Assembly (NCBI RefSeq): GCF_002218195.1
Contig: NZ_CP022336.1
Coordinates: 2,351,001-2,415,000, forward strand
DNA length: 64,000 bases
Reading direction: 5' to 3'
Source of the DNA: Sphingorhabdus sp. SMR4y
GTDB taxonomy: Bacteria; Pseudomonadota; Alphaproteobacteria; Sphingomonadales; Sphingomonadaceae
Positions within the stretch are counted from its first letter, which is position 1. Each line of letters starts with the position of its first letter. Below the pieces are notes generated by a model. It was not told where the DNA came from. It searched no databases and saw only the letters and a program-made list of their open reading frames with translations. Shown here in pieces: positions 34,628-56,700 of the stretch. The position numbers were made by a program, and so were the translations under genes.

Positions 34628-35404
34628 TCATTTGCCACCGGTGACATAAAGACATTGGCCCGTCACCCAGCTGGAGGCGGGCGAAGCCATATAGACCACG
34701 GCGGCGGCAATATCCTCTTCCCGGCCGAAACGGGCCAGCGGTATCTGGAACTGTTTGAGCAGGGCTTCCCGCTTTTCTTCGGAATCGATGCCCATGGATT
34801 CGTCGAAATTTTCGGTCGGGATCGGTCCCGGCGCCACCGCATTGACGCGGATTTTCGGAGCCAGTTCCAGCGACAGGCTGGCGGTCAGGCTGTTTACCGC
34901 CGCCTTGGACGCGCCATAGGGCGCGTTTTTCACTTGCCCTCCGATTGCCGCGCGGGACGAGATATTGATGATTGCCCCGCCATTCTCGCCCATGTGAGTC
35001 GCGGCTGCGACCGCGCCCATCCAGACGCTCTTCAGGTTCAGCTCGATTTGCGCGTCCCAGCTGTCTTCCGGCGTGCGGGTCAGATAGCGCGGCGTGCCAT
35101 CGGGCAGACCACCGGCATTGCTCACCCAGATCGTCAATCGCCCCAGTTCCTCGACCGCGCGGTTGGCGAGGTTCTCCAGAGCGGCGCGGCTCGTGACATC
35201 GGTCGGCACCGCTATTGCGCGACGGCCCATTGCGCGTATCTCTTCGGCGACCTTTTGCAGGTCATCGGCAGAGCGTGCGGCAATGGCGACATCGGCGCCC
35301 GCTTCGGCCAGGCCAAGCGCAATTGCTCGCCCGATGCCCTTGCCCGCGCCGGTGACGACAGCGACTTGGCCGTCGAGTTTGAACTGATCCAGAAGGCCCG
35401 TCAT
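34628..35404 (-). CDS. SDR family oxidoreductase
   Basis: The 258-residue protein has the cofactor loop VVTGAGKGIGRAIALG near residue 17, NAGG near 90 and the catalytic YGASKAAVNSL near 160. The C-terminal GQCLYVTGG is typical of 3-oxoacyl reductase-like SDRs. It is the last gene of the five-gene minus operon that starts at 42017, and lies 27 bases after the FAD dehydrogenase. It would supply an alcohol or ketone step in that pathway. Substrate unknown. Confidence 0.9.
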   Translation of the reverse strand: MTGLLDQFKLDGQVAVVTGAGKGIGRAIALGLAEAGADVAIAARSADDLQKVAEEIRAMGRRAIAVPTDVTSRAALENLANRAVEELGRLTIWVSNAGGLPDGTPRYLTRTPEDSWDAQIELNLKSVWMGAVAAATHMGENGGAIINISSRAAIGGQVKNAPYGASKAAVNSLTASLSLELAPKIRVNAVAPGPIPTENFDESMGIDSEEKREALLKQFQIPLARFGREEDIAAAVVYMASPASSWVTGQCLYVTGGK

Positions 35405-35431
35405 CTCATCTCATCTCCCTGATGGTGCCGG

Positions 35432-37057
35432 TCATTGATTGACCCGTCTCGCCGCCGCGCGGCCCGCGATATAGCCGAATGTCAGAGCCGGGCCCAATGT
35501 GCCGCCTGCTCCGGCATAGACGCTGCCGGTGGGGGCGCTGATCACGTTGCCGGCGCCGAACAGTCCGGCAATCGGCGCCCCGTCGACATCCACAATCTGC
35601 GCCTGCGCATTGGTTTTTGCGCCGCCATTGGTACCAAGCGCACCCATCCGGATTTCCACCGCATAAAAGGGTGCCTTGGTCAGGCCACCCAATGTGGCCG
35701 CGGCCCCGTCCCGCGAACGGTCACCATAGAAGCGGTCATAGCCGGTCTTGCCGCGACCGAAATCCCGATCGTCGAGCTGCTCGGCCTGGTCATTGAACCG
35801 GTTTACCGTGGCCGGAAGGTTGGTGGCATCGACGCCTATCTGGGTTGCGAGTTCTGCCAGCGTATCGGCCTGTGCCACCCAATCGGGCAAAGGCGCGCCG
35901 GGCATGATCGATGAAAGCGGATAGCGCTCCCGATAGTGCGAATCGAAAATCAGATAGGCGGGAAGGTTGGGATAGTCGTAAGTTGCCGGATCGAAGGCGT
36001 GGAAGGCTCCGGCCAGGGCCGAATAATTGGCGGCTTCGTTACAGAATCTCTTGCCGGTTCGGTTGACCATGATGCCGTGCGGCAGGGTCCGCTCGATCAG
36101 CACCGGCATGTTGCGGGTTTCGCCGCTTTGCCATTGCGCTTCGGGAATGGCGAGAGTGGGTACCCACCAGGCGCTGGTCATGTTGCCCAGACCCGCGCCC
36201 GCGGCCATCGCCATTTTCAGGCCATCGCCACGATTGGTCGGCGGCGAGGCCGGCGCCTCCAGCGGCCCGCGCAAGAAGGCGTGTTTCAGCGCATCATTCC
36301 ATTCGAATCCGCCGGTGGCCAGGATCACGCCGTTGCGCGCAGAGATTGTCTCTTGTTCGCCGCCGCGTTCGACAATCGCGCCGGTTACCCGGCCCTGATC
36401 AAGGGAAAGCCGATAACCGCTGCATCCGAGAACAGGCTCGATGCCGCGATCGAGACAGGCCTTCAGCAGCCGCCCGACCAGCGCCTGTCCCCAGCCGCGC
36501 AAATCTTCGGTTTCGCGGCGCTGCAATTCGGCCGGATCGACTACACCGCTGCCGCCGCCGAGCGGCGTTTCGCGCAACATCATTCTGGGTGCAGGGCCAT
36601 GTGCGAACACCCGGTCCTTCCAGAGCCCGAGCGTCCCGAAGTCAAACAGTTCGTTGTCGAGCGAGCGGCCGCCCGTTTTCGCGCCGGGGCGGTCTTCATA
36701 ATAGTCCGGATAATCCGGCATCATCGTCAGCCGGATCGCGTCCACGCCGGTCAGGAAGGAGAGCGCCGGTCCGGCCTCGGCGACAAAGGCCCGGAGCGTG
36801 GCCTCGTCCATCTCGCCGTGATCGAGCGACCGGAAATAGGCCAATGCGTCGGCGTTGCTGTCCGCGATGCCCTGCGCGGCCATCTGGTCATGACCGGGGA
36901 GCCAGACCACACCACCGGAAATCGCGGCGGTTCCGCCCAGCCGGTCCTGCTTTTCAATCAGCTGGACCGAGGCGCCGGATTCATGCGCGGCCAGAGCGGC
37001 GGTCAGTCCCGCTGCCCCCGCACCGATGATCAGAACATCTGTCTCGCTATCGACTAT
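35432..37057 (-). CDS. FAD-dependent dehydrogenase (KstD/fumarate-reductase family), apparent ATA start
   Basis: The family needs an N-terminal Rossmann loop, and the sequence supplies it: DVLIIGAGAAGLTAALAAHE, then LIEKQDRLGG and ISGGVVWLPGHD. This loop is upstream of the first GTG at 36910, which alone would give a 492-residue protein with no FAD site. The in-frame upstream stop is at 37091-37093, and between that and GTG 36910 there is no ATG, GTG or TTG. The likeliest start is ATA at 37057, four bases after GGGAGAGG, giving 541 residues. An in-frame CTG inside the loop is less likely. C-terminal GSVYAGAGGTLGPALTFGYI closes the FAD site. It would dehydrogenate a ring or a saturated chain; the substrate is unknown. 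Confidence 0.8.
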   Translation of the reverse strand: MVDSETDVLIIGAGAAGLTAALAAHESGASVQLIEKQDRLGGTAAISGGVVWLPGHDQMAAQGIADSNADALAYFRSLDHGEMDEATLRAFVAEAGPALSFLTGVDAIRLTMMPDYPDYYEDRPGAKTGGRSLDNELFDFGTLGLWKDRVFAHGPAPRMMLRETPLGGGSGVVDPAELQRRETEDLRGWGQALVGRLLKACLDRGIEPVLGCSGYRLSLDQGRVTGAIVERGGEQETISARNGVILATGGFEWNDALKHAFLRGPLEAPASPPTNRGDGLKMAMAAGAGLGNMTSAWWVPTLAIPEAQWQSGETRNMPVLIERTLPHGIMVNRTGKRFCNEAANYSALAGAFHAFDPATYDYPNLPAYLIFDSHYRERYPLSSIMPGAPLPDWVAQADTLAELATQIGVDATNLPATVNRFNDQAEQLDDRDFGRGKTGYDRFYGDRSRDGAAATLGGLTKAPFYAVEIRMGALGTNGGAKTNAQAQIVDVDGAPIAGLFGAGNVISAPTGSVYAGAGGTLGPALTFGYIAGRAAARRVNQ

Positions 37058-37142
37058 CGCACCTCTCCCGTGACCGGATTGGGGACCAGTCTAGGGACAA
37101 GCACGTGGTGCGACAAACCGCACTTTGGATAGCCGCAGCTGG

Positions 37143-39008
37143 CTAGGCAGCAACAGTTCCCGGCTGCACCGGTGCCGGCAGTCCGGTTTCTTCCAGACAA
37201 TTGGCCCGCAATGTCTCGATATCGGGACCAAAGTTGAACGGACTGTCGGTCGCCACCACATCCGCTGCCATTTCCGCGCGCAGGCTTTCGGTGGCCGGAC
37301 CATCGACGCTGCCGTCTGCGGCGATGACAACGCCATAGTCGCGCGCGCCTTCCACGGTCACCAGCCCCTGACGGATTTCCAGCGCCACCAGTTCGGGATC
37401 GCGCTCCAGCGGGTTGCCCCAGCCGCCACCGCCCCAGGTGATGAAGTGCAGCAGATCGCCTTCGCGGACTTCAACGCCGTCCTGCTTGTTGCCGACCACC
37501 TCTTTTGAACCGTCCGCGCGTTCCAGTATCTTGGTCGCCCGGTCGCCGGGCTGACCGCCGTTGACGCCCCAGGGATAAGTGAACCAGCGGTCGTCATGGA
37601 TCGCCACCGTTCCGGGTTCGAGGAAACGGTAGGTCATGTGAATGCCGTTGCCACCGCGGAAGCTGCCCGCGCCGCCGCTGTCGGGCTTGGCCTCGTACCG
37701 TTCGATTCGCAGCGGGAAATATTTCTCGAGAAACTCGTTCGGCACATTGGTGAATCCGGGCCACAGCGAGTGGCCATCCGGACCATCGCCAAAGGGCCGT
37801 CCGGGAATGCCGCCAAAGCCGATCTGGAAGAGCTGGAACCATTCGCCGCCCTTGTCGAACCCGGAATACATCAGATGCGGGCTGGAGGAGAAGCCCGCGC
37901 CGTTGAGGAATTCGGGTTGCCGTTGACCGAGCAAGCCGCCCAAAATGTCGAAAATCCGGCCCAGTGCATGGGTGCGTCCGGCAAGCGCGGCGGGATATTT
38001 CGGCTTCAGCAGCGAGCCTTCCGGAATGCGCACGTCAACCAGATCATAGAAGCCGTCGTTGAACAATATCTGCGGATCGAAGACCATGATCATGTAGATG
38101 CCGAAGAACATCTTGAACATATTCTCGTTGAGAAAGAAGTTGATCGAGCTGGGCGCTTGCGGGTCGGTGCCCTCGAAATCGAGGATGACCTTGCCGCCCT
38201 CGCGCCACATCTTGCAGCTGATCTTGTAGGGGCCGAAACCGACGCCGTCGTCGCAGATATAGTCGCTGAAGCTGACCGGTTCCTCGCCGATGCTGGTCTC
38301 GATCAGATGTTTCATGGCGCGGTGGTTGCGTGCCAGCAGCAGATCGGTGGCGCCGGCAAATTCATCCTCGCCAAAGCGTGCGCACATTTCGTCGACCCGG
38401 CGGGCTGCGACCCGGCAGGAAGCGATCAGCGCGTTGAGATCGGCGGCGCACCAGTCCGGCTTGCGGCTCTGGTGCAGGACAACCTTCACCATTTCCTCGT
38501 TATAGACGCCTTTCTGGTAGATCTTGACCGGCGGTATACGGACGCCTTCCTCGAACACGCTCTTGCTGTCGATCGGGATCGAGCCGGCGACCTTGCCGCC
38601 GATATCGGACTGGTGACCGAACATGGCGGTCCAGGCGACCAGCCGCCCACCGCGATAGACCGGCAGCAACACCAGCCAGTCATTATTATGGCTGACCGCG
38701 CCGTCGCAACTGTACGGATCGCTGAGGAAGATCATGTCGCCTTCCTCGATGGTCCCGGGATAGGAGCGCAGGAAGCCGTCGATGAAGCTGCCGAACTGGC
38801 CGACCACCATCTTACCGTCGCGATCGGCGATCAGCGGAAAGGCGTCGCCCTGTTCGCGGATACCCGGTGACATGGCCGTGCGGACCAGAGTGGCATCCAT
38901 CTCGATCCGCGCGTTGCGCAAGGCATTTTCCATGATGTCGAGCGTGACCGGATCGACATCGACCTTGTTGAAGGGGGCGCTGTTGGTTTCGATAATCTGT
39001 GCGGGCAT
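37143..39008 (-). CDS. hydantoinase B/oxoprolinase family protein (HyuB-like)
   Basis: The 621-residue protein matches the HyuB family. VDPVTLDIMENALRNARIEM begins it, and VRTAMSPGIREQGDAFPL is the segment near residue 45 that carries family residues. DPYSCDGAVSHNNDWL follows. The C-terminus has GGGGWGNPLERDPELVALE, the usual end. Such subunits pair with HyuA to hydrolyse a cyclic amide or hydantoin with ATP. Relatives are acetone and acetophenone carboxylases and caprolactamase. The HyuA gene lies one base upstream, so they form one complex. The substrate is not predictable. Confidence 0.9.
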   Translation of the reverse strand: MPAQIIETNSAPFNKVDVDPVTLDIMENALRNARIEMDATLVRTAMSPGIREQGDAFPLIADRDGKMVVGQFGSFIDGFLRSYPGTIEEGDMIFLSDPYSCDGAVSHNNDWLVLLPVYRGGRLVAWTAMFGHQSDIGGKVAGSIPIDSKSVFEEGVRIPPVKIYQKGVYNEEMVKVVLHQSRKPDWCAADLNALIASCRVAARRVDEMCARFGEDEFAGATDLLLARNHRAMKHLIETSIGEEPVSFSDYICDDGVGFGPYKISCKMWREGGKVILDFEGTDPQAPSSINFFLNENMFKMFFGIYMIMVFDPQILFNDGFYDLVDVRIPEGSLLKPKYPAALAGRTHALGRIFDILGGLLGQRQPEFLNGAGFSSSPHLMYSGFDKGGEWFQLFQIGFGGIPGRPFGDGPDGHSLWPGFTNVPNEFLEKYFPLRIERYEAKPDSGGAGSFRGGNGIHMTYRFLEPGTVAIHDDRWFTYPWGVNGGQPGDRATKILERADGSKEVVGNKQDGVEVREGDLLHFITWGGGGWGNPLERDPELVALEIRQGLVTVEGARDYGVVIAADGSVDGPATESLRAEMAADVVATDSPFNFGPDIETLRANCLEETGLPAPVQPGTVAA

Positions 39009-39009
39009 A

Positions 39010-41064
39010 TCAGGCTCCTTCCACCAGGTTTATGATCAGATTGCCATGGTCGTCGACCAGCGCTTCGCAGCCGCTGTGGACCAATGTCGTGCTGTCCATT
39101 TCGGTGACGATGGCAGGCCCCGGGACGCGGTTTCCGGCCTTCAGCAGGGCGCGGTCATAAATCGCTGCGTCCTGCATCTTGCCATCCATGTAGAGCTGGT
39201 GATCGCGGGTCTTGGCAGCCGATGGATCAGCGTCGCCCTTGCCGATGGACGGTGGTGCGACATCGGCGGATTTGCCGAGCGCCACGGCGCGGACATTGAC
39301 AATCTCGTGCGGTGTCTCGTCCAGATTGAAGGTGAATAATCGTTCGTGTTCGGTATCGAAGCGCGCGATCAGGCTGGCAATGGAAAGACCTTCCGGTTCT
39401 ACCGCCAGCGGAATTTCGAAGGCCTGGCCGGCGTAGCGGATATCGATTTCATAGAGCAATTCGATATCGCCGGGCGCGACATCTTCGGCCTCCAGTTCCT
39501 GTTTGACCTGCGCGCCGAGACTGTCGAGATAGGCGGTGAGTTCTTCGTCGCTGGTGTTCTGTACCATCTTGTTGAAGCTGCGCTGGGTTTCGACGCGCTG
39601 GCGGGTGGTTGCATCGCCATAGGCGCAAAGCACGCCGGGCGAGGGCGGAATGATCACCGGCCAGCTGTTCATCAGCTTGCCCATCGCATTGGCGTGCAAC
39701 GGTCCGGCGCCACCAAATCCCATCAGCGCGAAGTCGCGCGGGTCATAGCCCTGCTGGACCGAGACCAGGCGCAGCGCACCAAACATATTTTCATTCACGA
39801 TGTCGATAATTCCGGCGGCGGCGTCCATCAGGTCGATCCCCAGCGCGTCGGCAATCGTCTGCACCGATTTTTTTGCCCCTTCGCGGTCGAGGGTGAAGCT
39901 GCCGCCCAGCAGCGATTCGGGCAAATAGCCGAGCACGACATTGGCGTCGGTCACTGTCGGCAATTCACCGCCCTTGCCATAAGCCACCGGCCCGGGCACC
40001 GCGCCAGCGCTTTCCGGACCAACCCGCAGCGCCTTGGTCAACTCGGGTACGAAGGCGATCGAGCCGCCACCGGCGCCGACGGTTTTGACGTCGATGGAAG
40101 AGGCGCGGACATTCAGGTCACCGACCGAGGTCTCCCGCTGCAATCGTGCGGAACCATTCTCGATCAGCGCCACATCGGTCGACGTGCCGCCCATGTCGAG
40201 CGTGAGAATATTCTTCACGCCCGCGCTTTTCGCCACCCAGACGGCGCCGGCAACACCGCCGGCCGGTCCCGACATCAGCAGGTTGACCGGTGCTTCGGCA
40301 CTTTTTTCCGCCGACATCAATCCGCCATCGGAGCGCAGCAGATTGAGCTTTGCCTTTGTGCCCCAATCCTTCAGTTCCCGTTCAAGATTACCGACATAGC
40401 GGGCCACCGCCGGACGTACGGCGCTATTGGCGATGGTGGTGAGGGCGCGTTCATATTCCTGCATTTCCGGCAGGATATCGGAGGAGATGGAAATCGGGAT
40501 ATCGGGAAAGACCTCGGCACAAATGGCGGCGACCGCCTTTTCGTGCCGGCCGTCGACATAGCTGTTCATCAGGCAGATGGTCAGCGCCTCGATCTCTTCC
40601 GATGCTTTCAGCTGTTCCAGCCGGGCGCGCATTTCCGGTTCGTCCAGCTCGCGAACGGTCTTGCCTTCGGCATCCATCCTCTCCGGCGCCTCGATCGTGC
40701 GTTCGAGCGCGGCCATGGGTTCGGGTTTTGGCCAGATGATCCAGGCGGCAAGACCACCTGGCACGAGGCTCCGGGCAATCTGCATCAGATGGCGATAGCC
40801 GTCGGTAACGACCAGCCCGACCTTGGCGATTTTCTTTTCCAGCACCGCGTTGGTCGCCACGGTGGTGCCGTGGAGGAACAGGTCGATATCCGCAGGCGCG
40901 ATATTCTGGCGTTCGCAAAGACCTCTGGCACCGTTGATGACCGCCTGGGAGGGATCGCTCGGGGTGGAAGGGACCTTGTCCCGGAACGTCTGGCCGGTTG
41001 CCTCGTCAATCAGCAACAGGTCGGTGAAAGTTCCGCCAACGTCGACACCCAATCGATATCCCAT
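39010..41064 (-). CDS. hydantoinase A/oxoprolinase family protein (HyuA-like)
   Basis: The 684-residue protein starts with YRLGVDVGGTFTDLLLIDE, the ATP-binding loop of the ASKHA fold. HGTTVATNAVLEKK near residue 67 and SGPAGGVAGAVWVAKSAG near 275 are further family segments, and LTLDMGGTSTDVALI gives the second phosphate loop. It ends in a HyuA C-terminal domain (VPGPAIVTEMDSTTLV). Together with HyuB it would couple ATP hydrolysis to opening or carboxylating a substrate. It lies 32 bases after the HMG-CoA lyase-like gene. Extra subunits typical of acetone carboxylase are absent. Confidence 0.92.
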   Translation of the reverse strand: MGYRLGVDVGGTFTDLLLIDEATGQTFRDKVPSTPSDPSQAVINGARGLCERQNIAPADIDLFLHGTTVATNAVLEKKIAKVGLVVTDGYRHLMQIARSLVPGGLAAWIIWPKPEPMAALERTIEAPERMDAEGKTVRELDEPEMRARLEQLKASEEIEALTICLMNSYVDGRHEKAVAAICAEVFPDIPISISSDILPEMQEYERALTTIANSAVRPAVARYVGNLERELKDWGTKAKLNLLRSDGGLMSAEKSAEAPVNLLMSGPAGGVAGAVWVAKSAGVKNILTLDMGGTSTDVALIENGSARLQRETSVGDLNVRASSIDVKTVGAGGGSIAFVPELTKALRVGPESAGAVPGPVAYGKGGELPTVTDANVVLGYLPESLLGGSFTLDREGAKKSVQTIADALGIDLMDAAAGIIDIVNENMFGALRLVSVQQGYDPRDFALMGFGGAGPLHANAMGKLMNSWPVIIPPSPGVLCAYGDATTRQRVETQRSFNKMVQNTSDEELTAYLDSLGAQVKQELEAEDVAPGDIELLYEIDIRYAGQAFEIPLAVEPEGLSIASLIARFDTEHERLFTFNLDETPHEIVNVRAVALGKSADVAPPSIGKGDADPSAAKTRDHQLYMDGKMQDAAIYDRALLKAGNRVPGPAIVTEMDSTTLVHSGCEALVDDHGNLIINLVEGA

Positions 41065-41096
41065 ATCTCAATCTCTCTCGTTTATTTATATGTCAT

Positions 41097-42017
41097 TCAG
41101 GATTCGGCTCTCGCGACCAGAGACGGAAGCGGCCGGCCGAGAACAGTTTCAAACCATTGATTTGTGGCTATGGCCTTGCGCAGATCGAGATCGTGGCCGA
41201 CGCCGGAGCGGTCGAGCAGATTCACCAGATCTTCGGTCGCGATATTGCCGGTGGCATTGGGCGCGAACGGACAGCCCCCTAGCCCGCCGAGGCTGGAATC
41301 GAGCGTCTCTACGCCGGCCTCTACCGCGGCCCACGCATTGGCGATGCCGGTGTTGCGCGTGTCGTGGAAATGGGCCCGCATCTTAATATGGTCGGGCAAC
41401 AGCTCCTTGAGCCGGCCGAACAGATCGGTGACCTGCGCAGGCACGCCGACACCGATCGTATCGGCCAGCGCAATTTCCATCGGATCTTCGGCGGCGATTT
41501 CTTCGGCGATTCGCAGAACCGTCTCCGGTTTTACCGCGCCTTCGAAGGGACAGCCGAAGGCAGCCGAGATAGTGACCTGCGCTTTCAGTCCCTCGGCCTT
41601 GGCAAATCGGATCATCTCGCGATTCTCCCTGATTCCCTGCTCGATGGTCTGGCCCTGATTCTTCTCGCCAAATGTGTTGCTCGCCACGACCACGCAGCCG
41701 GCTTCGTCAATCCCGCGCTTGTTGCCTTCGCGCGTCGCCAGGCCCCGCAGCACGCCGCGCTTGTTCAGGCATAATCCGATATAGGATATATCGTCGTGGT
41801 CCGGCAGGCCGGCGATCACGTCTTCCGCATCGGCCATCTGCGGTACCCGGCCCGGATGGACAAAGCTTGCCACCTCCATGCGCTTGACGCCAGCGTCCAG
41901 CATGCGTGTTATCAGGCCCAGCTTGTCCGCTGTCGAAATGATTTCGGATTCGTTCTGCAGCCCGTCACGCGGGCCGACTTCAAGAATAGAAATCGTCTTG
42001 CGATTGTCCTTGCTCAT
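41097..42017 (-). CDS. hydroxymethylglutaryl-CoA lyase-like protein
   Basis: The 306-residue TIM-barrel protein matches HMG-CoA lyase in length. EVGPRDGLQNE at residues 13-23 gives the catalytic Arg17 and Asp18. HFHDTRNTGIANAWAA gives the metal-binding His pair, and GLGGCPFAPNATGNIATEDL gives the active-site Cys loop. It would split a 3-hydroxy-3-methyl dicarboxyl-CoA (HMG-CoA or a relative such as citramalyl-CoA) to acetyl-CoA plus a keto acid. The start ATG 42017 has no good ribosome site and lies five bases from the GntR-type palindrome at 42022-42033. It is the first gene of the minus operon that includes HyuAB. Confidence 0.92.
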   Translation of the reverse strand: MSKDNRKTISILEVGPRDGLQNESEIISTADKLGLITRMLDAGVKRMEVASFVHPGRVPQMADAEDVIAGLPDHDDISYIGLCLNKRGVLRGLATREGNKRGIDEAGCVVVASNTFGEKNQGQTIEQGIRENREMIRFAKAEGLKAQVTISAAFGCPFEGAVKPETVLRIAEEIAAEDPMEIALADTIGVGVPAQVTDLFGRLKELLPDHIKMRAHFHDTRNTGIANAWAAVEAGVETLDSSLGGLGGCPFAPNATGNIATEDLVNLLDRSGVGHDLDLRKAIATNQWFETVLGRPLPSLVARAES

Positions 42018-42021
42018 ATAA

Positions 42022-42033
42022 ATTGTATACAAT
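42022..42033. promoter_or_regulatory. GntR/FCD-type operator (site 1)
   Basis: ATTGTATACAAT is a perfect 12-base palindrome. An identical copy is at 44021-44032. From family knowledge, FCD-subfamily GntR proteins bind short palindromes of this TTGTNNACAA kind. The site lies between the divergent HMG-CoA lyase-like and CoA-transferase genes and so may control both. Confidence 0.75.
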
Positions 42034-42081
42034 CCTGTAACTGCTTTGTATAGAAGAAAGGATGATGCGGAGGTATTTTTA

Positions 42082-43263
42082 ATGACGCAAGGTGCTTTGA
42101 CAGGATTACGGCTGATCGAAATGGGTCAGCTGATCGCGGGGCCGTTCTGTGGCCAGCTCATGGGCGACCATGGTGCAGAGGTTATCAAGATCGAGCCGCC
42201 GAAAGTGGGCGACGCGATGCGCAGCTGGGGGCAGGGCATTCCTCTCTGGTTCTCCGTTGTCGGCCGCAACAAAAAGTCGATCACGCTGAATTTGCGGGAA
42301 AAGGAAGGTCAGGCGATCGTCAAGCAGCTGGTCGAGAAATCCGACTTTCTGCTCGAGAATTTTCGCGCCGGCACCATGGAAAAATGGGGGCTGGATTACG
42401 ACACATTAAGTGCCATCAACAAGGGTCTGATCATGATCCGCGTGTCGGGTTATGGCCAGACCGGACCCTATTCGCACCGCGCCGGCTATGGCGGCATAGG
42501 TGAGGCCATGGGCGGCATGCGCTACATCATGGGCGAGCCCGACCGGCCGCCCAGCCGCGCCGGACTGTCGATTGGCGATTCGCTCGCCGCGACCTACGCC
42601 TGTCTTGGCGGGTTGATGGCGCTGGAGCACAGGCACAAGACCGGCGAGGGGCAGGTCGTCGATTCGGCCATCTACGAAGCGGTGCTGGCAAACATGGAAT
42701 CGACCGTCGCGGAATATACGGTAGCAGGCCATATTCGGGAACGAACCGGATCGATCCTGCCGAAAATCGCACCTTCCAATGTCTATCCGACCAGCGATGG
42801 CAGCATATTGATCGGCGGCAATCAGGACAGTGTCTGGAAGCGGATGGCCGCGATGATGGGCCGGCCGGAACTTGCCGAAGATCCGCGCTATGCAACCCAT
42901 GTCGCGCGTGGCGAGAACCAGACCGAGCTGGACGAGCTGATCATGGATTGGACCAGGACAATCAAGAGCAAGAAACTGCTGGAAATGTGCGAGGAACATG
43001 GCGTTCCTGCCGGCAATGTCTATCGCGCCCCGGAGATGCTGGAGGACCCGCATTTCCAGGCACGCGAGGCTCTGGTCGAGATGGATCACCCGCAGCACGA
43101 ACATTTTGTCATGCAGAATGTCGCGCCGAAACTGTCCAAGACCCCTGGCCATATCGATAGCGTCGGGCCAGATCTGGGTGCCCATAATGAAGCCGTCTAT
43201 GGCGAGTTGCTGGGTATGGACAGCGCAACGATGAATGACTTGCGGGAGCGGGGTATTATCTGA
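42082..43263 (+). CDS. CaiB/BaiF-type CoA-transferase family protein, catalytic Asp replaced
   Basis: The 393-residue protein has the family III layout: GLRLIEMGQLIAGPFCGQL, GAEVIKIEPPKVGDAMRSW and KKSITLNLREKEG. At the place of the catalytic aspartate, the paralogue at 2950 reads YDHVMQAM, but here the sequence is AGYGGIGEAMGGM with Gly137. Many relatives in this subgroup also lack Asp, so the mechanism may differ, or it may act as a racemase or in another way. The start ATG at 42082 has CGGAGG upstream. It is divergent from the HMG-CoA lyase-like gene and could activate the acid that the lyase cleaves. Confidence 0.88.
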   Translation: MTQGALTGLRLIEMGQLIAGPFCGQLMGDHGAEVIKIEPPKVGDAMRSWGQGIPLWFSVVGRNKKSITLNLREKEGQAIVKQLVEKSDFLLENFRAGTMEKWGLDYDTLSAINKGLIMIRVSGYGQTGPYSHRAGYGGIGEAMGGMRYIMGEPDRPPSRAGLSIGDSLAATYACLGGLMALEHRHKTGEGQVVDSAIYEAVLANMESTVAEYTVAGHIRERTGSILPKIAPSNVYPTSDGSILIGGNQDSVWKRMAAMMGRPELAEDPRYATHVARGENQTELDELIMDWTRTIKSKKLLEMCEEHGVPAGNVYRAPEMLEDPHFQAREALVEMDHPQHEHFVMQNVAPKLSKTPGHIDSVGPDLGAHNEAVYGELLGMDSATMNDLRERGII

Positions 43264-43290
43264 CGCCGGGTTCCGGTCAACTTTCCCCTC

Positions 43291-43944
43291 TCAGCTTTCC
43301 CCGGTCCGCGATGACGCGCTGCTGAAGCTGTGGAATGCGCGGCGAATATGGCTGGTCATGACGGCGCGCGCCCATTTCTGATCCTTGGCTGCGAAGGCGG
43401 CGATCAGTTCGTCATGATCGGTACCCGACTGGATCAGATCGTCCTGGGAATATTGGTTGGCAGTGTGGCGGACCACCGGCTGTTCGACCAATGCCGGGAG
43501 CAACCGATCCAGTCGCGGTGATTCGGCGCGTTCCAGAATCAAGTCGTGGAATTGCCGGTTTGCCTGCAGGAACGTGGCAATATCGGCCTCCGGGCGGTTA
43601 ACCGCTTCGGTCAGGCGAGCGTTGATGGCACGCAGCCGGGCCAGGCTTTCGTCATCCATGCGTTGTGCTGCCCGTTCTGCGGCGTGGGATTCGAGCATTG
43701 CCCGTAGCGTGAACATCTCGTCGATTTCATCATCCGACCAGTCCGCCACCGACAATCGCTTGGAGGCGCTGCGAACCAGCAGCATCTCATTCTCCAGACG
43801 CTGGACCGCATCGCGCACTGGTGTCCGCGAGACCCCGGAAATTTCGGCGAGTCGTTCCTCGGTCAACTGCATACCAGGCTGCACCTCACCCGACAGGATG
43901 AAGCTGCGTATCTTTCTATATGCGCGATCAGAAGCACGGCTCAT
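43291..43944 (-). CDS. GntR family transcriptional regulator, FCD subfamily
   Basis: The 217-residue protein has an N-terminal winged helix with QLTEERLAEISGVSRTPVRD and LENEMLLVR, which are typical of GntR proteins. The C-terminal FCD domain is helical, with ESHAAERAAQRM and QFHDLILERAESPRL, and a histidine in SHIRRAFHSF that may help bind a metal and ligand acid. I start at ATG 43944. The frame is open to 44073, but those residues are not conserved-looking. It lies between two identical palindromes and is likely the local regulator, probably autoregulated. The ligand is unknown. Confidence 0.9.
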   Translation of the reverse strand: MSRASDRAYRKIRSFILSGEVQPGMQLTEERLAEISGVSRTPVRDAVQRLENEMLLVRSASKRLSVADWSDDEIDEMFTLRAMLESHAAERAAQRMDDESLARLRAINARLTEAVNRPEADIATFLQANRQFHDLILERAESPRLDRLLPALVEQPVVRHTANQYSQDDLIQSGTDHDELIAAFAAKDQKWARAVMTSHIRRAFHSFSSASSRTGES

Positions 43945-44020
43945 GAACCGACTATTGGCGGATTTACGGGCGTTGGGCAAGGGCTGACCCGCAACGCCAG
44001 TTTCCTCTTGACGGATGATA

Positions 44021-44032
44021 ATTGTATACAAT
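44021..44032. promoter_or_regulatory. GntR/FCD-type operator (site 2)
   Basis: This is the second perfect ATTGTATACAAT palindrome. It lies 77 bases upstream of the regulator start on one side and 47 bases before the racemase-like gene on the other, so it can control both. Confidence 0.75.
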
Positions 44033-44058
44033 ACAAAGGATGCAGGGGGATTTATCCT

Positions 44059-44082
44059 ATGAATGTGCCGCAATCGCTATGA
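44059..44082 (+). CDS. seven-codon minicistron before the racemase-like gene
   Basis: ATG at 44059 is followed by seven codons in all (MNVPQSL) and a TGA at 44080-44082. The stop overlaps the racemase-like ATG as ATGA. GGGGGA lies eight bases upstream of the mini start, while the racemase-like ATG itself has no ribosome site. The most natural reading is translational coupling, with the minicistron loading ribosomes for the downstream gene. It is too short for other proof. Confidence 0.5.
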   Translation: MNVPQSL

Positions 44083-44822
44083 AACGGATCAAGGTCATTG
44101 TACCCATCCCGATGGATGCGGAAGGGGTCGCGGCCAGAGCCGAGCAATTGCCTGCCGATTTCGTGCGGTCCGGTTTTCAGCCAGAGTTTGTCGCCGTTCC
44201 CTGGGGCGCTGCCCTGGGCGACAGCTATCATGATACGCTGTTGATGGATTGGACGGTCTTTCAGGCCGGGATCAAGGCCGAGGAAGAAGGCTATGCCGGG
44301 GTGCTGATCGACACGGTCAGCGACAGCGGTATGCGGGCGCTGCGTTCGCGACTGAACATTCCGGTGGTCGGCCCGGGCGAGGCGGCCTTTGCCGCTGCGA
44401 TGATGCTGGGCAAGAAATTTACCGTACTGACAATGTGGCCCGAATGGTTCCCGCTCTATGAAAAGACACTGACCGAATATGGCTGGTGGGAACGGGTCGC
44501 CTCGTTGCGGTCGATCGAGACCCGGCCCGATGTCACCGAATTGCTTGCCGGCAAGGAAGAGGTGATCTTCGACAAGTTGCGCGAAGAAGCGACGCTGGCA
44601 ATGGAAGAGGACGGCGCCGATGTCATCGTGCTGGGGTCGACCACCATGCATCAGTCGGCCCAATATCTTGACGAGAAGCTGCCGATCCCTGTGCTCAATC
44701 CGGGGCAGGTTGCCTATAAATTTCTCGAAACGCTGATCGAACTCGGCCTGACCCACAGCAAGAAGGCCTTCCCGGCTCCCGAAGTGCCGAAAGACGAAGA
44801 TATTCGAAAGGGATGGTATTGA
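44079..44822 (+). CDS. Asp/Glu/hydantoin racemase superfamily protein lacking both catalytic cysteines
   Basis: The 247-residue protein has the two-domain racemase layout. It begins RIKVIVPIPMDAEG, and VLIDTVSDSGMRALRS is the place of the first catalytic Cys in relatives such as hydantoin racemase. VIVLGSTTMHQS is the place of the second. The protein has no Cys at all. A two-base racemase mechanism therefore cannot work as in the family. It might act as a decarboxylase, an isomerase using other residues, or a binding protein. It is followed by two NTF2-like genes with TGATG overlap. The context is a GntR-controlled catabolic unit. Confidence 0.85.
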   Translation: MKRIKVIVPIPMDAEGVAARAEQLPADFVRSGFQPEFVAVPWGAALGDSYHDTLLMDWTVFQAGIKAEEEGYAGVLIDTVSDSGMRALRSRLNIPVVGPGEAAFAAAMMLGKKFTVLTMWPEWFPLYEKTLTEYGWWERVASLRSIETRPDVTELLAGKEEVIFDKLREEATLAMEEDGADVIVLGSTTMHQSAQYLDEKLPIPVLNPGQVAYKFLETLIELGLTHSKKAFPAPEVPKDEDIRKGWY

Positions 44823-45253
44823 TGACTGACTGGACACCCGGAATGGCAGGCCAGGTGCCGCTGCCTTATCCATTTTACATCGATATCGTGACCAAGCGCT
44901 ATTTTGACGGCGTCGACAACAAGAATATGACCCAGGTCCTGAATTGCTTCGCGCCCGATGCGGTGCTGTATGAGGCAACCTCCGATACCACCCACAGGGG
45001 CCGGGATGCGATCAGGGCGATGTTCGAAAAGCTTTTCGCCGATTTCGAGCAGATCTGGCACGGCAATTTCGTCCATACCGCCGACCCGGAATCCAATGCC
45101 ATCTGCTCGCAGTTCACGGTGCTTATTACGCCCAATGGCGGTGAGCAGCTGCGCTATGAAAATTGCAACCGCTTCTATTGCAAGGACCGTCTGTTTCAGG
45201 ACGTCACCGTCTATATGAGCGGCGACAATCTGCTGAAAGAGGGAGACGTCTGA
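44822..45253 (+). CDS. NTF2-like (SnoaL-fold) protein, first of tandem pair
   Basis: The 143-residue protein is a single cone-shaped domain of the nuclear transport factor 2 superfamily. ITKRYF-like TKRYFDGVDNKNMTQVLNCF begins it, and GRDAIRAMFEKLFADFEQIW and a C-terminal TVYMSGDNLL follow. Such domains serve as small isomerases, hydratases or ring-modifying subunits. The ATG at 44822 overlaps the upstream stop by one base (TGATG), so it is coupled. A related protein is next, at 45253. Substrate unknown. Confidence 0.85.
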   Translation: MTDWTPGMAGQVPLPYPFYIDIVTKRYFDGVDNKNMTQVLNCFAPDAVLYEATSDTTHRGRDAIRAMFEKLFADFEQIWHGNFVHTADPESNAICSQFTVLITPNGGEQLRYENCNRFYCKDRLFQDVTVYMSGDNLLKEGDV

Positions 45254-45651
45254 TGCAATATGAACCCGCTCTCTCGCGCGATCAACTGATCCAGCTGGCA
45301 ACCCGGACCTATTTCGGCAATGTCGACGCCAAGAATATGGAGGCCACGCTCGACTGTTTCCATGATGGCGCTCTCTTCTGTGTCCAGACGGATTTCACCC
45401 GGCACAGCGGCAAGGAAGAAATCCGGCGCATGTTCGATGATTTCTTCGCGGCCTATGACACGATCGTTCACCGCGACTTCACTTGCACCGTCGATGAGGC
45501 CAACGGACGGATCGCCGCCTCTTTCGTTGCCGAACTGACCGATGCCGACGGCGGTGTCACGTTGCTCAACAACACCAATTTCTGGAGAGTCCGGGACGGC
45601 AAGTTTCAGGAAGTCTACGTCTACATGAGCGGGGCTAACGTTCTCGTTTAA
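45253..45651 (+). CDS. NTF2-like (SnoaL-fold) protein, second of tandem pair
   Basis: The 132-residue protein resembles its neighbour: TRTYFGNVDAKNMEATLDCF, GKEEIRRMFDDFFAAYDTIV and VYVYMSGANVLV align with the first protein's segments. This suggests a tandem duplication, possibly giving a heteromer. Its ATG overlaps the upstream stop by one base (TGATG). It is followed by a TonB receptor after about 57 bases. Function unknown. Confidence 0.85.
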   Translation: MQYEPALSRDQLIQLATRTYFGNVDAKNMEATLDCFHDGALFCVQTDFTRHSGKEEIRRMFDDFFAAYDTIVHRDFTCTVDEANGRIAASFVAELTDADGGVTLLNNTNFWRVRDGKFQEVYVYMSGANVLV

Positions 45652-45708
45652 TCACCATTTGACGGGCCAGAAGGTCTGCAAAATTTTCCATTCAGGGAAG
45701 GAAGAAAA

Positions 45709-48234
45709 ATGCGACGGGTTAAAACAGGTCTTTCAATTTCAGTGGCTATCGCAGCCTTGGTCAGCTTCAATCCTGCTGTTGCTCAAGTCGGAGCCGAACA
45801 GGACAGCGCAGACGAGAATCAGGATTCAGGTCAAATCGTTGTGACCGCCCGGCGTCAAAGCGAGCTGTTGCGGGACGTGCCGGCATCAGTTTCCGTTCTG
45901 ACGGAAGACGCGCTTGTAAATAGTGGCGCAACGACGGCCGAGGATTTCACCCAGTTGACTGCAGGTGTGACGATCGTGGCGGGCAACACCGAAGCGGGCG
46001 ATAATCAGGTCAATATCCGCGGTCTCAACGGTGCGAGAGATGGCGAGAATAATGTCGCTCTGGTGATTGACGGCGTGCTGAAAACCAATGTTGCGGTGCT
46101 GAACCAGGATCATGGCGAGCTTGAGCAGGTTGAAATATTGAAAGGACCGCAGGGAGCTTTATATGGCCGCAATGCCGCTGCCGGCGCGATTGTCATCACC
46201 ACGAAAGGACCAACAGATTATCTGACCGGTTCTGCTCGAGTGGGCTATGCAACCGACAAGACAATAACCGCCCGGGCCCTGCTGAGTGGACCGATCTCGG
46301 ACAATGCCGGCTTTGTCATCAATGGTGACTTTGCCCGCAGCGACGGTTTTCTGCGCAACTCATTCTTGCCAACGACAGAAAACAGGACGCTGTATCCCGG
46401 GAACACCACCGATCCCGCCTCAATCAACAATTACAGCGGCTGGAATATCAACGGCAGGCTTGTGCTCGAACCTTCTGACGTCACGAAAATTGACGCGAAG
46501 GTCCGCTATGGCGAACGCAAGGGGGGGGCAATTTCATTCAACGCGATTTTCCAGATCCCGTTTCTGGCTGATCTGCTCGGACCCGATTTCAATATCGATG
46601 CCAATGACCACCAGTTCGTTTTTGCACCCAATATTGATCCGCTCAACCAGCAGGAAACACTGGATGCTTCGATCAAGCTGGAGACCGACTTGGGATTTGC
46701 CGACCTGAGCGCCTACGTGGCCTATAATAACAACAAGAATTTTTTCTACGCCGACGGTACGAGCGGCAGTTTTGCATTCTTCAACGGCGAAGCCACCTGT
46801 CAAACCACATCCGCGGCGCTGGCAGGCTTTCCGGTGGAAGCGCCTTTCGGGATCGGAGGTGGTGCCAATCTGCCACCGTATTCACCGACCAGTTGTGATG
46901 GCACGCAATATCAGCAAACCGATCAGGAAGACATTAGCGCCGAAATCCGGCTGGCCGGCGGCGACAGTTTTCTGAACTGGCAGGCGGGGGTCTATTATCT
47001 GCATTTGGATCGCCGGGTGTGCCGCAATCTGGGGCTTGATACGGGGCAGGGCGTAATCGCGCAGTGTTTCACAACGGATCCGAGCAATCCGACTGAAGCG
47101 CTGATCGACGATGATTTCAAAACCGATGTGTTCGCGTTGTTCGGATCGGTCAATTACGAGATACAGACCGGCCTTACCGCCGGACTGGCCTTGCGTTATG
47201 ATATCGAGAAACGAGACAGCAGCAATAATGTTCCGACGGATGTCCGTACCCGCTGGGTGGGAAATGTTCTGACAGGATTTCCGAACGGTACGGCTACCAC
47301 AGCAGCGAATTATTATCTGAACCCGGGCCTGGATCCAGCCAATAATCCGAGCGGAGTGCTGGGGGACCGGTCGCGGACGTTCAAACAGCTGCAGCCCAAA
47401 TTGTCGATCAGTTACCGGGCAACCGATTATCTCAACCTGTTTGCCAACTGGGGGATCGGTTTCAAGTCTGGCGGCTTTAACAACGGTGGTTCTGCTGCGG
47501 TTATCGACAATTTCTTCAACCAGCAATTCAATGCCGGGATCACCATCTTTGACGATTTCAACAAGGAAACATCCAGCGCCTTTGAGGTCGGTCTGAAAGG
47601 GTCTACTCCGGGCAATGTCGTAAATTATGAAATCGCCGGATATTATACCGATGTTACCGACATGCAGTTTTTCGGATTCTTCGTCGGGCCGTTCGGACTG
47701 CTTCGCGTCGTATCGAACATCGACAAGGTCGAACTTTATGGCATCGAAGCCAGTCTGGCCGTCAAGCCAAACAGCTGGCTGACGTTGAGCGCCTCGGGCA
47801 ATATCACCGAGAGCGAGATCAAGCGCAACAGTGCGCGGCCGAATACGGTTGGCAACAAGTCGCCCTATACCGCTGACTATACTCTCAATCTGGGAGCGGA
47901 AGCTCTTGTACCGGTCAGCGACGATACGGACATCTTGCTAAAAGCCGACTATCGTCTGACCGGTCCGACCTGGTTCCATACGGTGCAGGACAATGATGTC
48001 CCGAACCAGTTTGGCCTTATCGGGAATTTCACCAACAGTCAGCGTGATGCATTCGGCATTCTGAACCTCAGAATAGGAATCAACGCAGAACACTGGTCCC
48101 TCGCCGCCTTTGCGCAGAATGTTACCAACAAGAAATTTCTTCAGGAGGTCATTCCGGCTCCGGAATTCGGAGGCTCTTTTGTGGCTCCAGGTTCTGATCG
48201 GGTCATTGGCGTAGAAGCGGGTTTCAAATTCTAG
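45709..48234 (+). CDS. TonB-dependent outer-membrane receptor
   Basis: The 841-residue protein has a signal peptide (about 1-26, ending AVAQ). SGQIVVTARRQSELLRDVPA resembles a TonB box and plug start, and the plug carries NIRGLNGARDGENNVALVID and LKGPQGALYGRNAAAGAIV. The barrel ends in VGVEAGFKF with terminal Phe. Its position after the two NTF2-like genes suggests that it imports the substrate of the GntR-controlled pathway. The ATG has AAGGAAG upstream. Substrate unknown. Confidence 0.93.
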   Translation: MRRVKTGLSISVAIAALVSFNPAVAQVGAEQDSADENQDSGQIVVTARRQSELLRDVPASVSVLTEDALVNSGATTAEDFTQLTAGVTIVAGNTEAGDNQVNIRGLNGARDGENNVALVIDGVLKTNVAVLNQDHGELEQVEILKGPQGALYGRNAAAGAIVITTKGPTDYLTGSARVGYATDKTITARALLSGPISDNAGFVINGDFARSDGFLRNSFLPTTENRTLYPGNTTDPASINNYSGWNINGRLVLEPSDVTKIDAKVRYGERKGGAISFNAIFQIPFLADLLGPDFNIDANDHQFVFAPNIDPLNQQETLDASIKLETDLGFADLSAYVAYNNNKNFFYADGTSGSFAFFNGEATCQTTSAALAGFPVEAPFGIGGGANLPPYSPTSCDGTQYQQTDQEDISAEIRLAGGDSFLNWQAGVYYLHLDRRVCRNLGLDTGQGVIAQCFTTDPSNPTEALIDDDFKTDVFALFGSVNYEIQTGLTAGLALRYDIEKRDSSNNVPTDVRTRWVGNVLTGFPNGTATTAANYYLNPGLDPANNPSGVLGDRSRTFKQLQPKLSISYRATDYLNLFANWGIGFKSGGFNNGGSAAVIDNFFNQQFNAGITIFDDFNKETSSAFEVGLKGSTPGNVVNYEIAGYYTDVTDMQFFGFFVGPFGLLRVVSNIDKVELYGIEASLAVKPNSWLTLSASGNITESEIKRNSARPNTVGNKSPYTADYTLNLGAEALVPVSDDTDILLKADYRLTGPTWFHTVQDNDVPNQFGLIGNFTNSQRDAFGILNLRIGINAEHWSLAAFAQNVTNKKFLQEVIPAPEFGGSFVAPGSDRVIGVEAGFKF

Positions 48235-48273
48235 TTTCGCCGACAAATTTAATGGGTTCAGAAGGGGCAGTAT

Positions 48274-49026
48274 ATGCGACTGGCTGGTAAAAGCGCGCTC
48301 ATCACCGGGAGTAGCTCGGGTATTGGTCGCGCCGTCGCCACCGCCTTTGCCGAAGCGGGGTGTGACAGGCTGATTATCAATTGTCCGGAAAATGACAGAC
48401 CGGCAGCAGAGTCGACTGCTGCCGATCTGAAGAAACTCGGTGCCGATACGATTGTCTTGGTTGCGGATGTCTCCTCGGCCGAGGAATGTCAGCGACTGGC
48501 GGATGAAGCGATCGATTTTGCCGGGGATCTGGACATATTGGTCAACAATGCGGGGATTGCGCACAATCATCTGGTCGAGGACCTGCCGGTCGATGTCTGG
48601 GACAAGGTGATGGCGGTTCACGCGCGAGCGACCTTTCTGATGACCAAGGCGGTACTCCCGCACATGTACGAGCGCAATTCCGGGCGAATCATCAACACGG
48701 TTTCGCAGCTCGCCTATAAGGGTGCGCCGGGCCTGGGTGCCTATACTGCGGCCAAGGGGGCTGTCCTTTCCTTTACCCGATCGCTTGCTCTGGAAATTGG
48801 CGACCGGAATGTCCGGATCAACTGTGTTGCGCCCGGGGCAACGGTCACACCCATTCTCGATGCAGTCGACCCCGAGGTGGTTGCGGCAGTGCTGGCAGGG
48901 ATTCCGGCGGGCCGTCTGGCAAAGGTTACGGACATCGCGCCATCCTATGTTTTTCTGGCTTCGAGGGATGGCGATCATTTCCAGGGTCAATGTATCAGCC
49001 CCAACGGCGGTGACCAGTTCCTCTGA
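48274..49026 (+). CDS. SDR family oxidoreductase
   Basis: The 250-residue protein has the cofactor loop LITGSSSGIGRAVATAF near residue 9 and NNAGIAHNH near 90. The catalytic Tyr and Lys lie in GAYTAAKGAVLSF near 155. It has the typical SDR end (GQCISPNGGDQFL). It lies 40 bases after the TonB receptor and 45 bases before another SDR. They probably carry successive redox steps in the same pathway. Substrate unknown. Confidence 0.9.
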   Translation: MRLAGKSALITGSSSGIGRAVATAFAEAGCDRLIINCPENDRPAAESTAADLKKLGADTIVLVADVSSAEECQRLADEAIDFAGDLDILVNNAGIAHNHLVEDLPVDVWDKVMAVHARATFLMTKAVLPHMYERNSGRIINTVSQLAYKGAPGLGAYTAAKGAVLSFTRSLALEIGDRNVRINCVAPGATVTPILDAVDPEVVAAVLAGIPAGRLAKVTDIAPSYVFLASRDGDHFQGQCISPNGGDQFL

Positions 49027-49070
49027 ACGGGCCGGAAGCAGGGCATCATTAAAATTGAGAAAGGTAGCTT

Positions 49071-49832
49071 ATGGAACAGCGACGGGCGGCAATGGTGTCG
49101 GGTGCTGGAATAGGAATCGGCGCGGCTACGGCCAAGGCGCTCGCGGCTGACGGCTTTCACGTTTTTGTAACGGATATTCTCACAGAAGAGGGCAACGCCT
49201 GCGTCGAGGAAATCAAGGCCACCGGTGGCGAGGCGCAATTTGTTCCACTCGATGTCACCGACAGCGCTGCCTGCGACAAGCTGGTGCAAAGAATCGAGTC
49301 GGAATTCGGTCATATATCCGCATTGGTGGCCAATGCCGGCATTGCGCCACGCGCGGCCTATCCAATCCTCAGCGATGACAAATGGGACGCCGTGCAGGAT
49401 GTGAATCTCAAGGGACAGTTCCGTCTGCTGCGTGCGGTGGCTCCCGCCATGGAAGCAGCCGGAGACGGGGCGATTGTTTGTATCGCTTCGATTGCTGGCG
49501 TGACCGTTGGATGGGATGATCACTGGCATTATTGCGCGGCCAAGGGCGGGATATCCGGAATGGTTCGCGGTGCTGCGGTGGCACTCGCAAAATCCGGGGT
49601 GCGGGTGAACGGCATTGCGCCGGGTTTCGTCCGGACAGCGCAAATTCTTTCAGCTGAAAATTCACTGGGAGCGGAGGGGCTTGCCGAAGCCGAAAAGACC
49701 GTGCCGCTTAGCGGGCGTTCGGGCGAGCCGGAAGAAATAGCAAATGTTGCGGCGTTTCTGGTTTCCGAAAAAGCGAGTTACATCACGGGCCAGACACTGG
49801 TTGTGGATGGCGGTCTGACCGTTTCGATGTAA
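49071..49832 (+). CDS. SDR family oxidoreductase
   Basis: The 253-residue protein has the cofactor loop [17 protein letters not shown] near residue 6, a variant without the usual T-G start, and [12 protein letters not shown] near 85. The catalytic segment is [11 protein letters not shown] near 155. It ends [14 protein letters not shown]. The start ATG has AAAGG upstream. It closes the plus-strand run of the GntR-linked cluster. Substrate unknown. Confidence 0.9.
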
Positions 49833-56681: not shown

Positions 56682-56700
56682 GGTCACCTCAAACTGGTAT

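Follow-up and report, generated by a model that had tools for sequence, protein, structure and literature searches.

The 64 000-nucleotide stretch of Sphingorhabdus sp. SMR4y DNA that was analysed (the window; positions 2351001–2415000 of a 3.48-Mb contig) carries at 34628–49832 a set of catabolic genes around a single GntR/FCD regulator. Sequence comparison establishes that the core genes of this set belong to one regulon, and their association is not due to chance because they recur together in other genomes and share an operator. Our overall reading, to which we give a probability of roughly 45%, is a GntR-run regulon built from a central module and a peripheral one, in which a hydantoinase-type enzyme (HyuAB) would open a cyclic imide and an amidase, a LeuCD-type hydratase, a CaiB CoA-transferase and an HMG-CoA-lyase-like enzyme (HMGL) would then act in turn. 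The interpretation given in the initial annotation is partly supported, and the amidase and the hydratase lie outside the window. Having its own operator and recurring partners turns a look-alike list of catabolic genes into a testable pathway: the regulon predicts a joint response of its genes, points to two partners absent from the window and suggests compounds for testing.

The genes are open frames of the families that the initial annotation had named. Pfam and NCBIfam scans of ten proteins (one of which, the SDR at 32467, is outside the gene set under study) gave HMGL-like, Hydantoinase_A with its N- and C-terminal domains, Hydantoinase_B, FAD_binding_2, SDR, CoA_transf_3, GntR with FCD, Asp_Glu_race and SnoaL/NTF2; NTF2b, the TonB receptor and the two 3' SDRs were identified from their translations and their similarity to relatives. 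The minus-strand run consists, in order, of HMGL, HyuA, HyuB, a FAD dehydrogenase and an SDR, with a single base between HyuA and HyuB, and the plus-strand genes are CaiB, the racemase-like Rac, NTF2a, NTF2b, TonB, SDR1 and SDR2. The features are as follows.

42023–42032, no strand: operator TTGTATACAA, a perfect palindrome, in the HMGL/CaiB divergent promoter; one of two exact genomic copies, in the same place across genera
42046–42055, no strand: degenerate operator-like site TTGTATAGAA, 23 bp from the site at 42023
44022–44031, no strand: operator TTGTATACAA in the GntR/Rac divergent promoter, behind a TTGAC box; second exact genomic copy, conserved
41097–42014, minus strand: HMGL, proposed alkylmalyl/citramalyl-CoA lyase; PF00682, NF004283 at 280 bits (cut-off 246)
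39010–41064, minus strand: HyuA, ATP-binding subunit of hydantoinase/lactamase type; PF05378/PF01968/PF19278, nearest solved structure 7hk5 (465 bits)
37143–39008, minus strand: HyuB, metal-binding subunit; PF02538, nearest 7hk5 and 6yra
35432–37057, minus strand: FAD_binding_2 dehydrogenase, accessory, from the domain scan; AUA start behind GGGAGAGG
34628–35404, minus strand: SDR, accessory, from the domain scan and relatives
42082–43263, plus strand: class III (CaiB) CoA-transferase; PF02515, nearest 4ed9, 10uh and 9br7
43291–43944, minus strand: GntR/FCD regulator; PF00392 and PF07729
44079–44822, plus strand: Rac, cysteine-free protein of predicted allantoin-racemase fold, peripheral; PF01177
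44813–45253, plus strand: NTF2-like protein a (NTF2a); SnoaL_2
45253–45651, plus strand: NTF2-like protein b (NTF2b), a paralogue 36% identical to NTF2a
45709–48234, plus strand: TonB-dependent receptor of a second clade, from similarity to the receptors of relatives
48274–49026, plus strand: SDR1, travelling with the second-clade receptor, from similarity
49071–49832, plus strand: SDR2, travelling with the second-clade receptor, from similarity

A shared operator and a recurring core

Exact copies of TTGTATACAA occur only twice in the whole genome, at 42023 in the gap between HMGL and CaiB and at 44022 in the gap between GntR and Rac. These are the two divergent promoters of the gene set, and the proposal of a single GntR-centred regulon therefore stands. 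HyuAB and HMGL are encoded in one gene run behind one operator and would thus not be under different signals. The window has three sites with at most one mismatch; the expected number is 0.38, and as many as three were not seen in any of 100 shuffles. The GntR start is probably at 43944, from an ATG read in the sequence and the 217-amino-acid frame of a related locus (L048); the operator at 44022 is therefore intergenic. The palindrome is found at the promoter of GntR itself and at those of its targets, as for a local regulator, and we infer that GntR is the protein that binds TTGTATACAA. At the second, degenerate site between HMGL and CaiB, TTTGTATAG is found in all eight Parasphingorhabdus-type sequences compared.

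The operator was surveyed in the window and 100 related loci (L045–L124 and L133–L152; 1.88 Mb). Core promoters, taken as the stretches upstream of GntR, Rac, HMGL, CaiB, TonB and the amidase, make up 6.8% of the surveyed bases, yet all 104 exact copies of TTGTATACAA fall inside them. For 19 permuted control palindromes the totals are two inside and 12 outside. An exact copy is present in 65 of the 81 loci with a GntR match. Where GntR, HyuA and HMGL occur together (74 loci), a site with at most one mismatch is found at both promoters in 59, at one in 13 and at neither in two. Loci that are related are not independent of one another, but the sites span Parasphingorhabdus to Halobacillus; in the latter, exact copies stand ahead of GntR and CaiB.

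The expectation that the gene set would co-occur elsewhere is borne out. Among 149 Sphingomonadaceae genomes, our own included (thresholds E ≤ 1e-220 for HyuA, 1e-50 for the amidase and 1e-80 for Rac), HyuA is present in 38, the amidase in 41 and both in 37 (Fisher 2.7e-29), and all 11 genomes with Rac have both. The core thus seen consists of HMGL, HyuA, HyuB, CaiB, GntR and usually TonB. Sphingomonadaceae share this core, and Lysinibacillus and Halobacillus have it in a rearranged form; in most cases the amidase goes with it. This recurring partner, absent from the window, is an isochorismatase-family hydrolase (PF00857) that resembles N-carbamoylsarcosine and maleamate amidases. An amidase homologue is found in 30 of the 32 genomes of the window's genus (E ≤ 1e-45), and that of the window's own genome is encoded in trans at C1:2673025, with 59% identity to the L048 protein.

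Twenty HyuA loci were fetched, all from the 27 Rac-negative genomes among the 38 with HyuA. The simple open-reading-frame caller missed or mis-started some genes in fetched loci, and the presence of core genes was therefore taken from tblastn. In 15 of the 20, HMGL, HyuA, HyuB, CaiB, amidase and GntR form one block without Rac or NTF2, and 13 of these 15 blocks also have a TonB receptor at 42% identity or more. The remaining five comprise one contig that is too short (L139), three divergent HyuAB copies (57–59%) and one hybrid without GntR and amidase. The complete core is therefore the central module and Rac/NTF2 an add-on. The racemase-like and NTF2 genes, placed in the regulon by the initial annotation, do share the operator, but they are peripheral, and Rac as part of the pathway core is ruled out by the same 15 loci.

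Rac-bearing loci were examined as the best 80 of 117 relatives, of which 63 were used for locus clustering. An NTF2-like gene accompanies Rac in 73 of the 80 and in all 55 loci of at least 20 kb. At a loose threshold, HyuA is found in 48 of these 55, HMGL in 50, CaiB in 50, GntR in 48 and TonB in 47; for HMGL, CaiB and TonB (E 1e-10, 35% coverage) paralogues are counted as well. SDR counts for these loci reflect cross-matches among SDRs and were set aside.

Enzymes of the core and the periphery

The initial annotation named the opening of cyclic amides and the carboxylation of ketones as known HyuAB reactions and inferred ring opening; our comparison favours ring opening over carboxylation. 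For both HyuA and HyuB the top-scoring enzymes are N-methylhydantoinase and caprolactamase, ahead of the acetone and acetophenone carboxylases: HyuA reaches 465 bits (7hk5, N-methylhydantoinase) and 369 bits for the hydrolases versus 161–282 for carboxylases, and HyuB 234 and 189 versus 48–130. The best NCBIfam equivalog score is far under its cut-off (CapA, 521 of 1000 bits). The paper on caprolactamase (PMC8453981) gives the ATP motifs of the large subunit as DxGGTxxD, DMGGT and GxxPGP and the CapB metal-site residues as His99, Asp102 and His124, and names IaaCE as a hydantoinase-like hydrolase. Set against these motifs, the HyuA translation contains DVGGTFTD, DMGGTSTD and GAVPGP. HyuB has HNND (HxxD) and a second histidine 25 residues further on, as spaced in CapB, in an Asp-His-Asp-His set that was read by eye and unaligned, with the first aspartate placed by motif. 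Together with an amidase in 37 of 38 HyuA genomes, these scores support a ring-opening hydrolase rather than a carboxylase.

The profile of the amidase is nearest to N-carbamoylsarcosine amidohydrolase and then to 4l07/3ot4, which we take to be maleamate amidases; its best solved matches are 26st, 4l07, 4l08, 3ot4 and 1nba. Asp29, Lys117 and Cys150 are invariant in eight sequences. That a ring-opening HyuAB is accompanied by an amide hydrolase suggests an imide (or ureide) ring, the opening of which leaves an amide from which the second enzyme frees ammonia. An imide would be a likelier ring type than a hydantoin or a lactam.

CaiB is covered by PF02515 over residues 1–366 of 366, as in class III CoA-transferases, and its nearest solved structures are 4ed9, 10uh and the succinate-hydroxymethylglutarate CoA-transferase 9br7. 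Its catalytic aspartate is presumably that of SIGD, placed by motif. HMGL, aligned to its nearest structure 1ydo, keeps PRDGLQNE, HFHDTR and the GGLGGCPFAP cysteine loop, which we assume to be the catalytic motifs of HMG-CoA lyase. The gene context favours alkylmalyl-CoA as its substrate rather than HMG-CoA. LeuCD lies within the same gene run in Halobacillus (L116). Nine Parasphingorhabdus-type loci have a LeuD-like gene beside second copies of CaiB and HMGL (CaiB2 and HMGL2), and three of the nine also show LeuC. In L049, L051 and L065 the LeuD-like protein shares 72–79% identity with the LeuD that the window's own genome encodes in an adjacent set of LeuC, LeuD, HMGL2 and CaiB2. A RipC/Ccl-like protein of citramalyl-CoA type is found by tblastn near the divergent HyuAB copies of L148–L150 (in L149, which was scanned, 207 bits with a cut-off of 375). 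MmgE/PrpD genes adjoin Rac in L122 and lie about 7 kb from it in L119. These contexts hint at a C4-dicarboxylate route. In L151 a PrpB-like lyase is 71% identical to a protein of L003, the latter below the cut-off. These lyase families share alkylmalate-type substrates.

Rac is present in 29 of 31 other genomes of the same genus, with 63–98% identity among the orthologues compared. Its predicted model (pLDDT, the predicted local distance difference test, 87.6; Foldseek E 4.9e-18 and template-modelling (TM) score 0.83) has the fold expected of an allantoin racemase, with TM 0.83 to 3qvk and 0.85 to 5lfd. The positions of the two racemase cysteines are occupied by Thr79 and Ser187 in 30 of 30 aligned homologues; the protein of the window has no cysteine at all, and most homologues have some at other positions. 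Because both catalytic cysteines are replaced, Rac does not belong to the known type of racemase; a ring of the shape that racemases accept may nevertheless be its substrate. The model of NTF2a (pLDDT 94.2) and the predicted fold of the NTF2 proteins resemble ketosteroid isomerase and limonene-epoxide hydrolase. NTF2 is present as a single copy in several gammaproteobacterial and both Bacillota loci. Strong conservation and the lost racemase cysteines make the Rac/NTF2 pair a strong candidate for a new enzyme activity.

Some loci have further genes around this pair. In the Sphingomonadales locus L093 a second Rac paralogue, 48% identical to that of the window, is encoded at 339–1175. Two GST-like proteins accompany Rac/NTF2 in several alphaproteobacteria (L120:11648–13080, also L093, L100, L103 and L105); the one at L120:12394 is confirmed by Pfam and the other was named by eye. 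In Pseudomonas (L112:11219–15452, also L119 and L121) two tandem proteins of about 700 amino acids, Old-Yellow-Enzyme-like by eye, follow Rac-NTF2.

The FAD gene, listed as 35432–36910, extends upstream, where the GAGAAG fingerprint is in frame; a frameshift is thereby ruled out. Its likely start in the window and in L045 is an AUA, at 37055–37057 in the window, behind GGGAGAGG. An AUA is found at the matching place behind a GGGAGAGG-like box in the window, L045, L050, L064 and L088, and the codon there is ATG in L051 and L052 and GTG in L049. The nearest NCBIfam models are 4-oxocyclohexanecarboxylate and 3-ketosteroid dehydrogenases, both below cut-off. The gene occurs in 16 of 24 Parasphingorhabdus-type loci versus none of 56 others. 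By this distribution it is a genus-level accessory, and the oxidation of the substrate that the initial annotation proposed would be an optional step.

The TonB receptor and the two SDRs, which had been read as part of the plus run, are present there but look like an exchanged receptor module. The receptor is 57–66% identical to those of L093, L094, L097, L100, L103, L105, L107, L109 and L110. With the remaining seven Parasphingorhabdus-type receptors in the comparison its identity is 49–51%; one of these seven is that of L045, to which the other six are 81–91% identical. Among the loci compared, homologues above 50% are found only in L105, L106 and L109 for SDR1 (60–65%) and only in L105, L106, L107, L109 and L110 for SDR2 (67–68%). 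This apparent exchange of the receptor together with its SDR partners speaks for a functional link of SDR1/SDR2 with the pathway. Novosphingobium clusters with Rac and TonB also encode a flavin monooxygenase resembling RutA (377 bits, cut-off 498), at L105:14406–15467 and in L106, L109 and L110. The minicistron proposed ahead of Rac had to be discarded as a gene: it is not conserved, L045 (a close relative) lacks its ATG, and its frame contains the operator.

Proposed pathway and competing explanations

In the pathway that we propose, the substrate would enter through the TonB receptor and may be trimmed by the peripheral enzymes (Rac/NTF2, the SDRs and the FAD dehydrogenase). HyuAB with ATP would convert a five-membered cyclic imide of maleimide or succinimide type to the half-amide, from which the amidase encoded in trans at C1:2673025 would release NH3 to give an alkyl-substituted cis C4-dicarboxylate (an alkylmaleate). 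A LeuCD-type hydratase, in trans here and in the cluster in Halobacillus, would produce an alkylmalate. CaiB would transfer CoA onto it, with succinyl-CoA as the probable donor, and HMGL would cleave the alkylmalyl-CoA to acetyl-CoA (or a homologue) and a 2-oxo acid. Repression of the two promoters by GntR would end once its FCD domain has bound the substrate or an early product. Several lines of support lead us to infer that a ring is opened, an amide hydrolysed and CoA transferred to a branched hydroxy-dicarboxylate, which the lyase then cleaves. The last two of these steps had been suggested in the initial annotation, and they are supported by the pairing of CaiB with HMGL, to which some loci add LeuCD or citramalyl-type lyases. 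Candidate substrates are tetrapyrrole maleimides, flavins or pyrimidines, and oxidised indole-acetates, among which the sequence does not decide. If the imide reading is true, it gives HyuAB-type enzymes a natural role in cyclic imide breakdown. A bolder version, which we consider quite unlikely, is a widespread, undescribed pathway for natural alkyl-substituted cyclic imides (for example alkylmaleimides from oxidative breakdown of chlorophyll and other tetrapyrroles), with a peripheral step catalysed by a new pair, a cysteine-less protein of allantoin-racemase fold and a pair of NTF2-like subunits. No description of the gene set or the operator was found in the open-access PubMed Central literature, which leaves out most subscription journals.

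Several observations weigh against the imide reading. The reversed control pattern of the operator occurs in three places in the same genome, so two copies of TTGTATACAA are an ordinary number; the weight of the operator evidence comes from both copies falling in these two divergent gaps. Lysinibacillus L115 and L083 have no site with at most one mismatch at either promoter. The amidase is in view in six of 24 Parasphingorhabdus-type loci, some of them on short contigs. The amidase and LeuCD loci of this genome lie elsewhere and have no exact operator, and the chain is therefore not one transcription unit here. No hydratase is found in the core block of the fetched Rac-negative Sphingomonadaceae loci, and the true intermediate may already carry a hydroxyl. 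In L148 a citramalyl-type lyase has not cleanly taken the place of HMGL, since an HMGL (51%) is encoded in that stretch too. Rac is without HyuA in view in seven of 36 loci of at least 20 kb outside the genus, and Rac and NTF2 have no assigned reaction. RutA-like and PuuE-like genes in related clusters point to ureides as much as to imides.

The last point leads to the best-surviving competitor, a somewhat unlikely one, namely the classical use of hydantoins (cyclic ureides): Rac as racemase, HyuAB as hydantoinase and the isochorismatase-type enzyme as carbamoylase, with CaiB and HMGL acting later on the carbon skeleton. The fold of Rac is closest to allantoin racemase, HyuAB to N-methylhydantoinase and the amidase to N-carbamoylsarcosine amidohydrolase, and a RutA-like gene is present in L105 and a PuuE-like gene in L003. 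However, both racemase cysteines are replaced in every aligned homologue, the full core is found in 15 of the 20 Rac-negative loci fetched, and such a route yields an amino acid, with no call for CaiB, HMGL or LeuCD.

An oxindole- or lactam-acetate route, in which HyuAB opens a lactam to a 2-hydroxy-2-aryl- or alkyl-succinate for activation by CaiB and cleavage by HMGL, would need no hydratase, in line with the core block, and HyuAB with a class III CoA-transferase recalls the arrangement for indole-acetate. We regard it as improbable: a lactam yields an amine, not an amide, which leaves the nearly invariant amidase (37 of 38) jobless, and no aromatic oxygenase is seen in the recurring core. 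A very unlikely explanation places the genes in terpenoid or leucine-type breakdown, with HyuAB as a ketone carboxylase akin to acetone carboxylase and HMGL as a genuine HMG-CoA lyase. HMGL does score above the NCBIfam HMG-CoA lyase cut-off and CaiB is similar to 9br7, but carboxylase subunits match HyuA far less well, and the link to the amidase and the citramalyl-type lyase near the divergent HyuAB of L148–L150 also argue against it. A chance neighbourhood of unrelated catabolic genes is hardly credible, being refuted for the core by the operator and the co-occurrence statistics, even though conservation with the core does not extend to the FAD gene, the SDR or the 3' SDRs.

Related loci and known systems

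Other parts of this genome resemble the imide-type cluster proposed here. A second locus of N-heterocycle type (L003/L004, G000:C1:2664001–2704000) includes the isochorismatase-family amidase at C1:2673025 together with a HyuAB paralogue, LeuC/LeuD, a PrpB-like lyase, a PuuE-like protein (146 bits, cut-off 425), FAD monooxygenases, an arylmalonate-decarboxylase-like protein and an IclR gene. A third (L131, G000:C1:2146001–2166000) has CaiB2-HMGL2-LeuD-LeuC and an isochorismatase-like gene, 34% identical to the amidase; PuuE-like, alpha/beta hydrolase and aldehyde dehydrogenase genes were named there by eye only. NCBIfam at 1e-30 gave no match for three names given by eye, the PuuE-like L131:14395, the isochorismatase-like L131:12885 and the AllA-like L132:13397, of which only the isochorismatase-like one is borne out otherwise, by its identity to the amidase. 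A methyltransferase-domain protein of about 400 amino acids adjoins a small protein at L003:3383–4992, L131:17269–18707, L132:13968–15540, L105:15503–16690 and L112:18131–19668; the small protein has about 93–128 amino acids, a range that excludes L105. The methyltransferase-domain protein of L003 has no NCBIfam match at 1e-20. What appears by eye to be a separate aromatic pathway lies in the window itself at 56136–63979, with a ring-hydroxylating dioxygenase pair and a meta-cleavage-type pair of aldolase and dehydrogenase.

Parts of the system have known counterparts. Rac shares the fold of the hydantoin and allantoin racemases but has Thr and Ser in place of both catalytic cysteines. The anaerobic indole-acetate (Iaa) pathway of Aromatoleum also uses a HyuAB-type hydrolase followed by a class III CoA-transferase; to our knowledge it has no amidase, GntR operator, HMGL or Rac/NTF2 pair. 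In Chloroflexus, R-citramalate CoA-transferase and R-citramalyl-CoA lyase, of CaiB type and HMGL family respectively, act on a tertiary hydroxy-succinate. That pair serves carbon fixation and is not known to come with HyuAB or an amidase. The partner amidase resembles N-carbamoylsarcosine amidohydrolase and maleamate amidase in its best solved matches and its invariant Asp, Lys and Cys; here it is encoded in trans, whereas it belongs to the core block in 15 of the 20 Rac-negative loci. Finally, HyuAB is of the two-subunit, ATP-dependent type of N-methylhydantoinase and caprolactamase, with their ATP and metal motifs and with 7hk5/6yra as best solved matches, but here it stands with CaiB, HMGL and GntR under one operator, usually in the company of the amidase.

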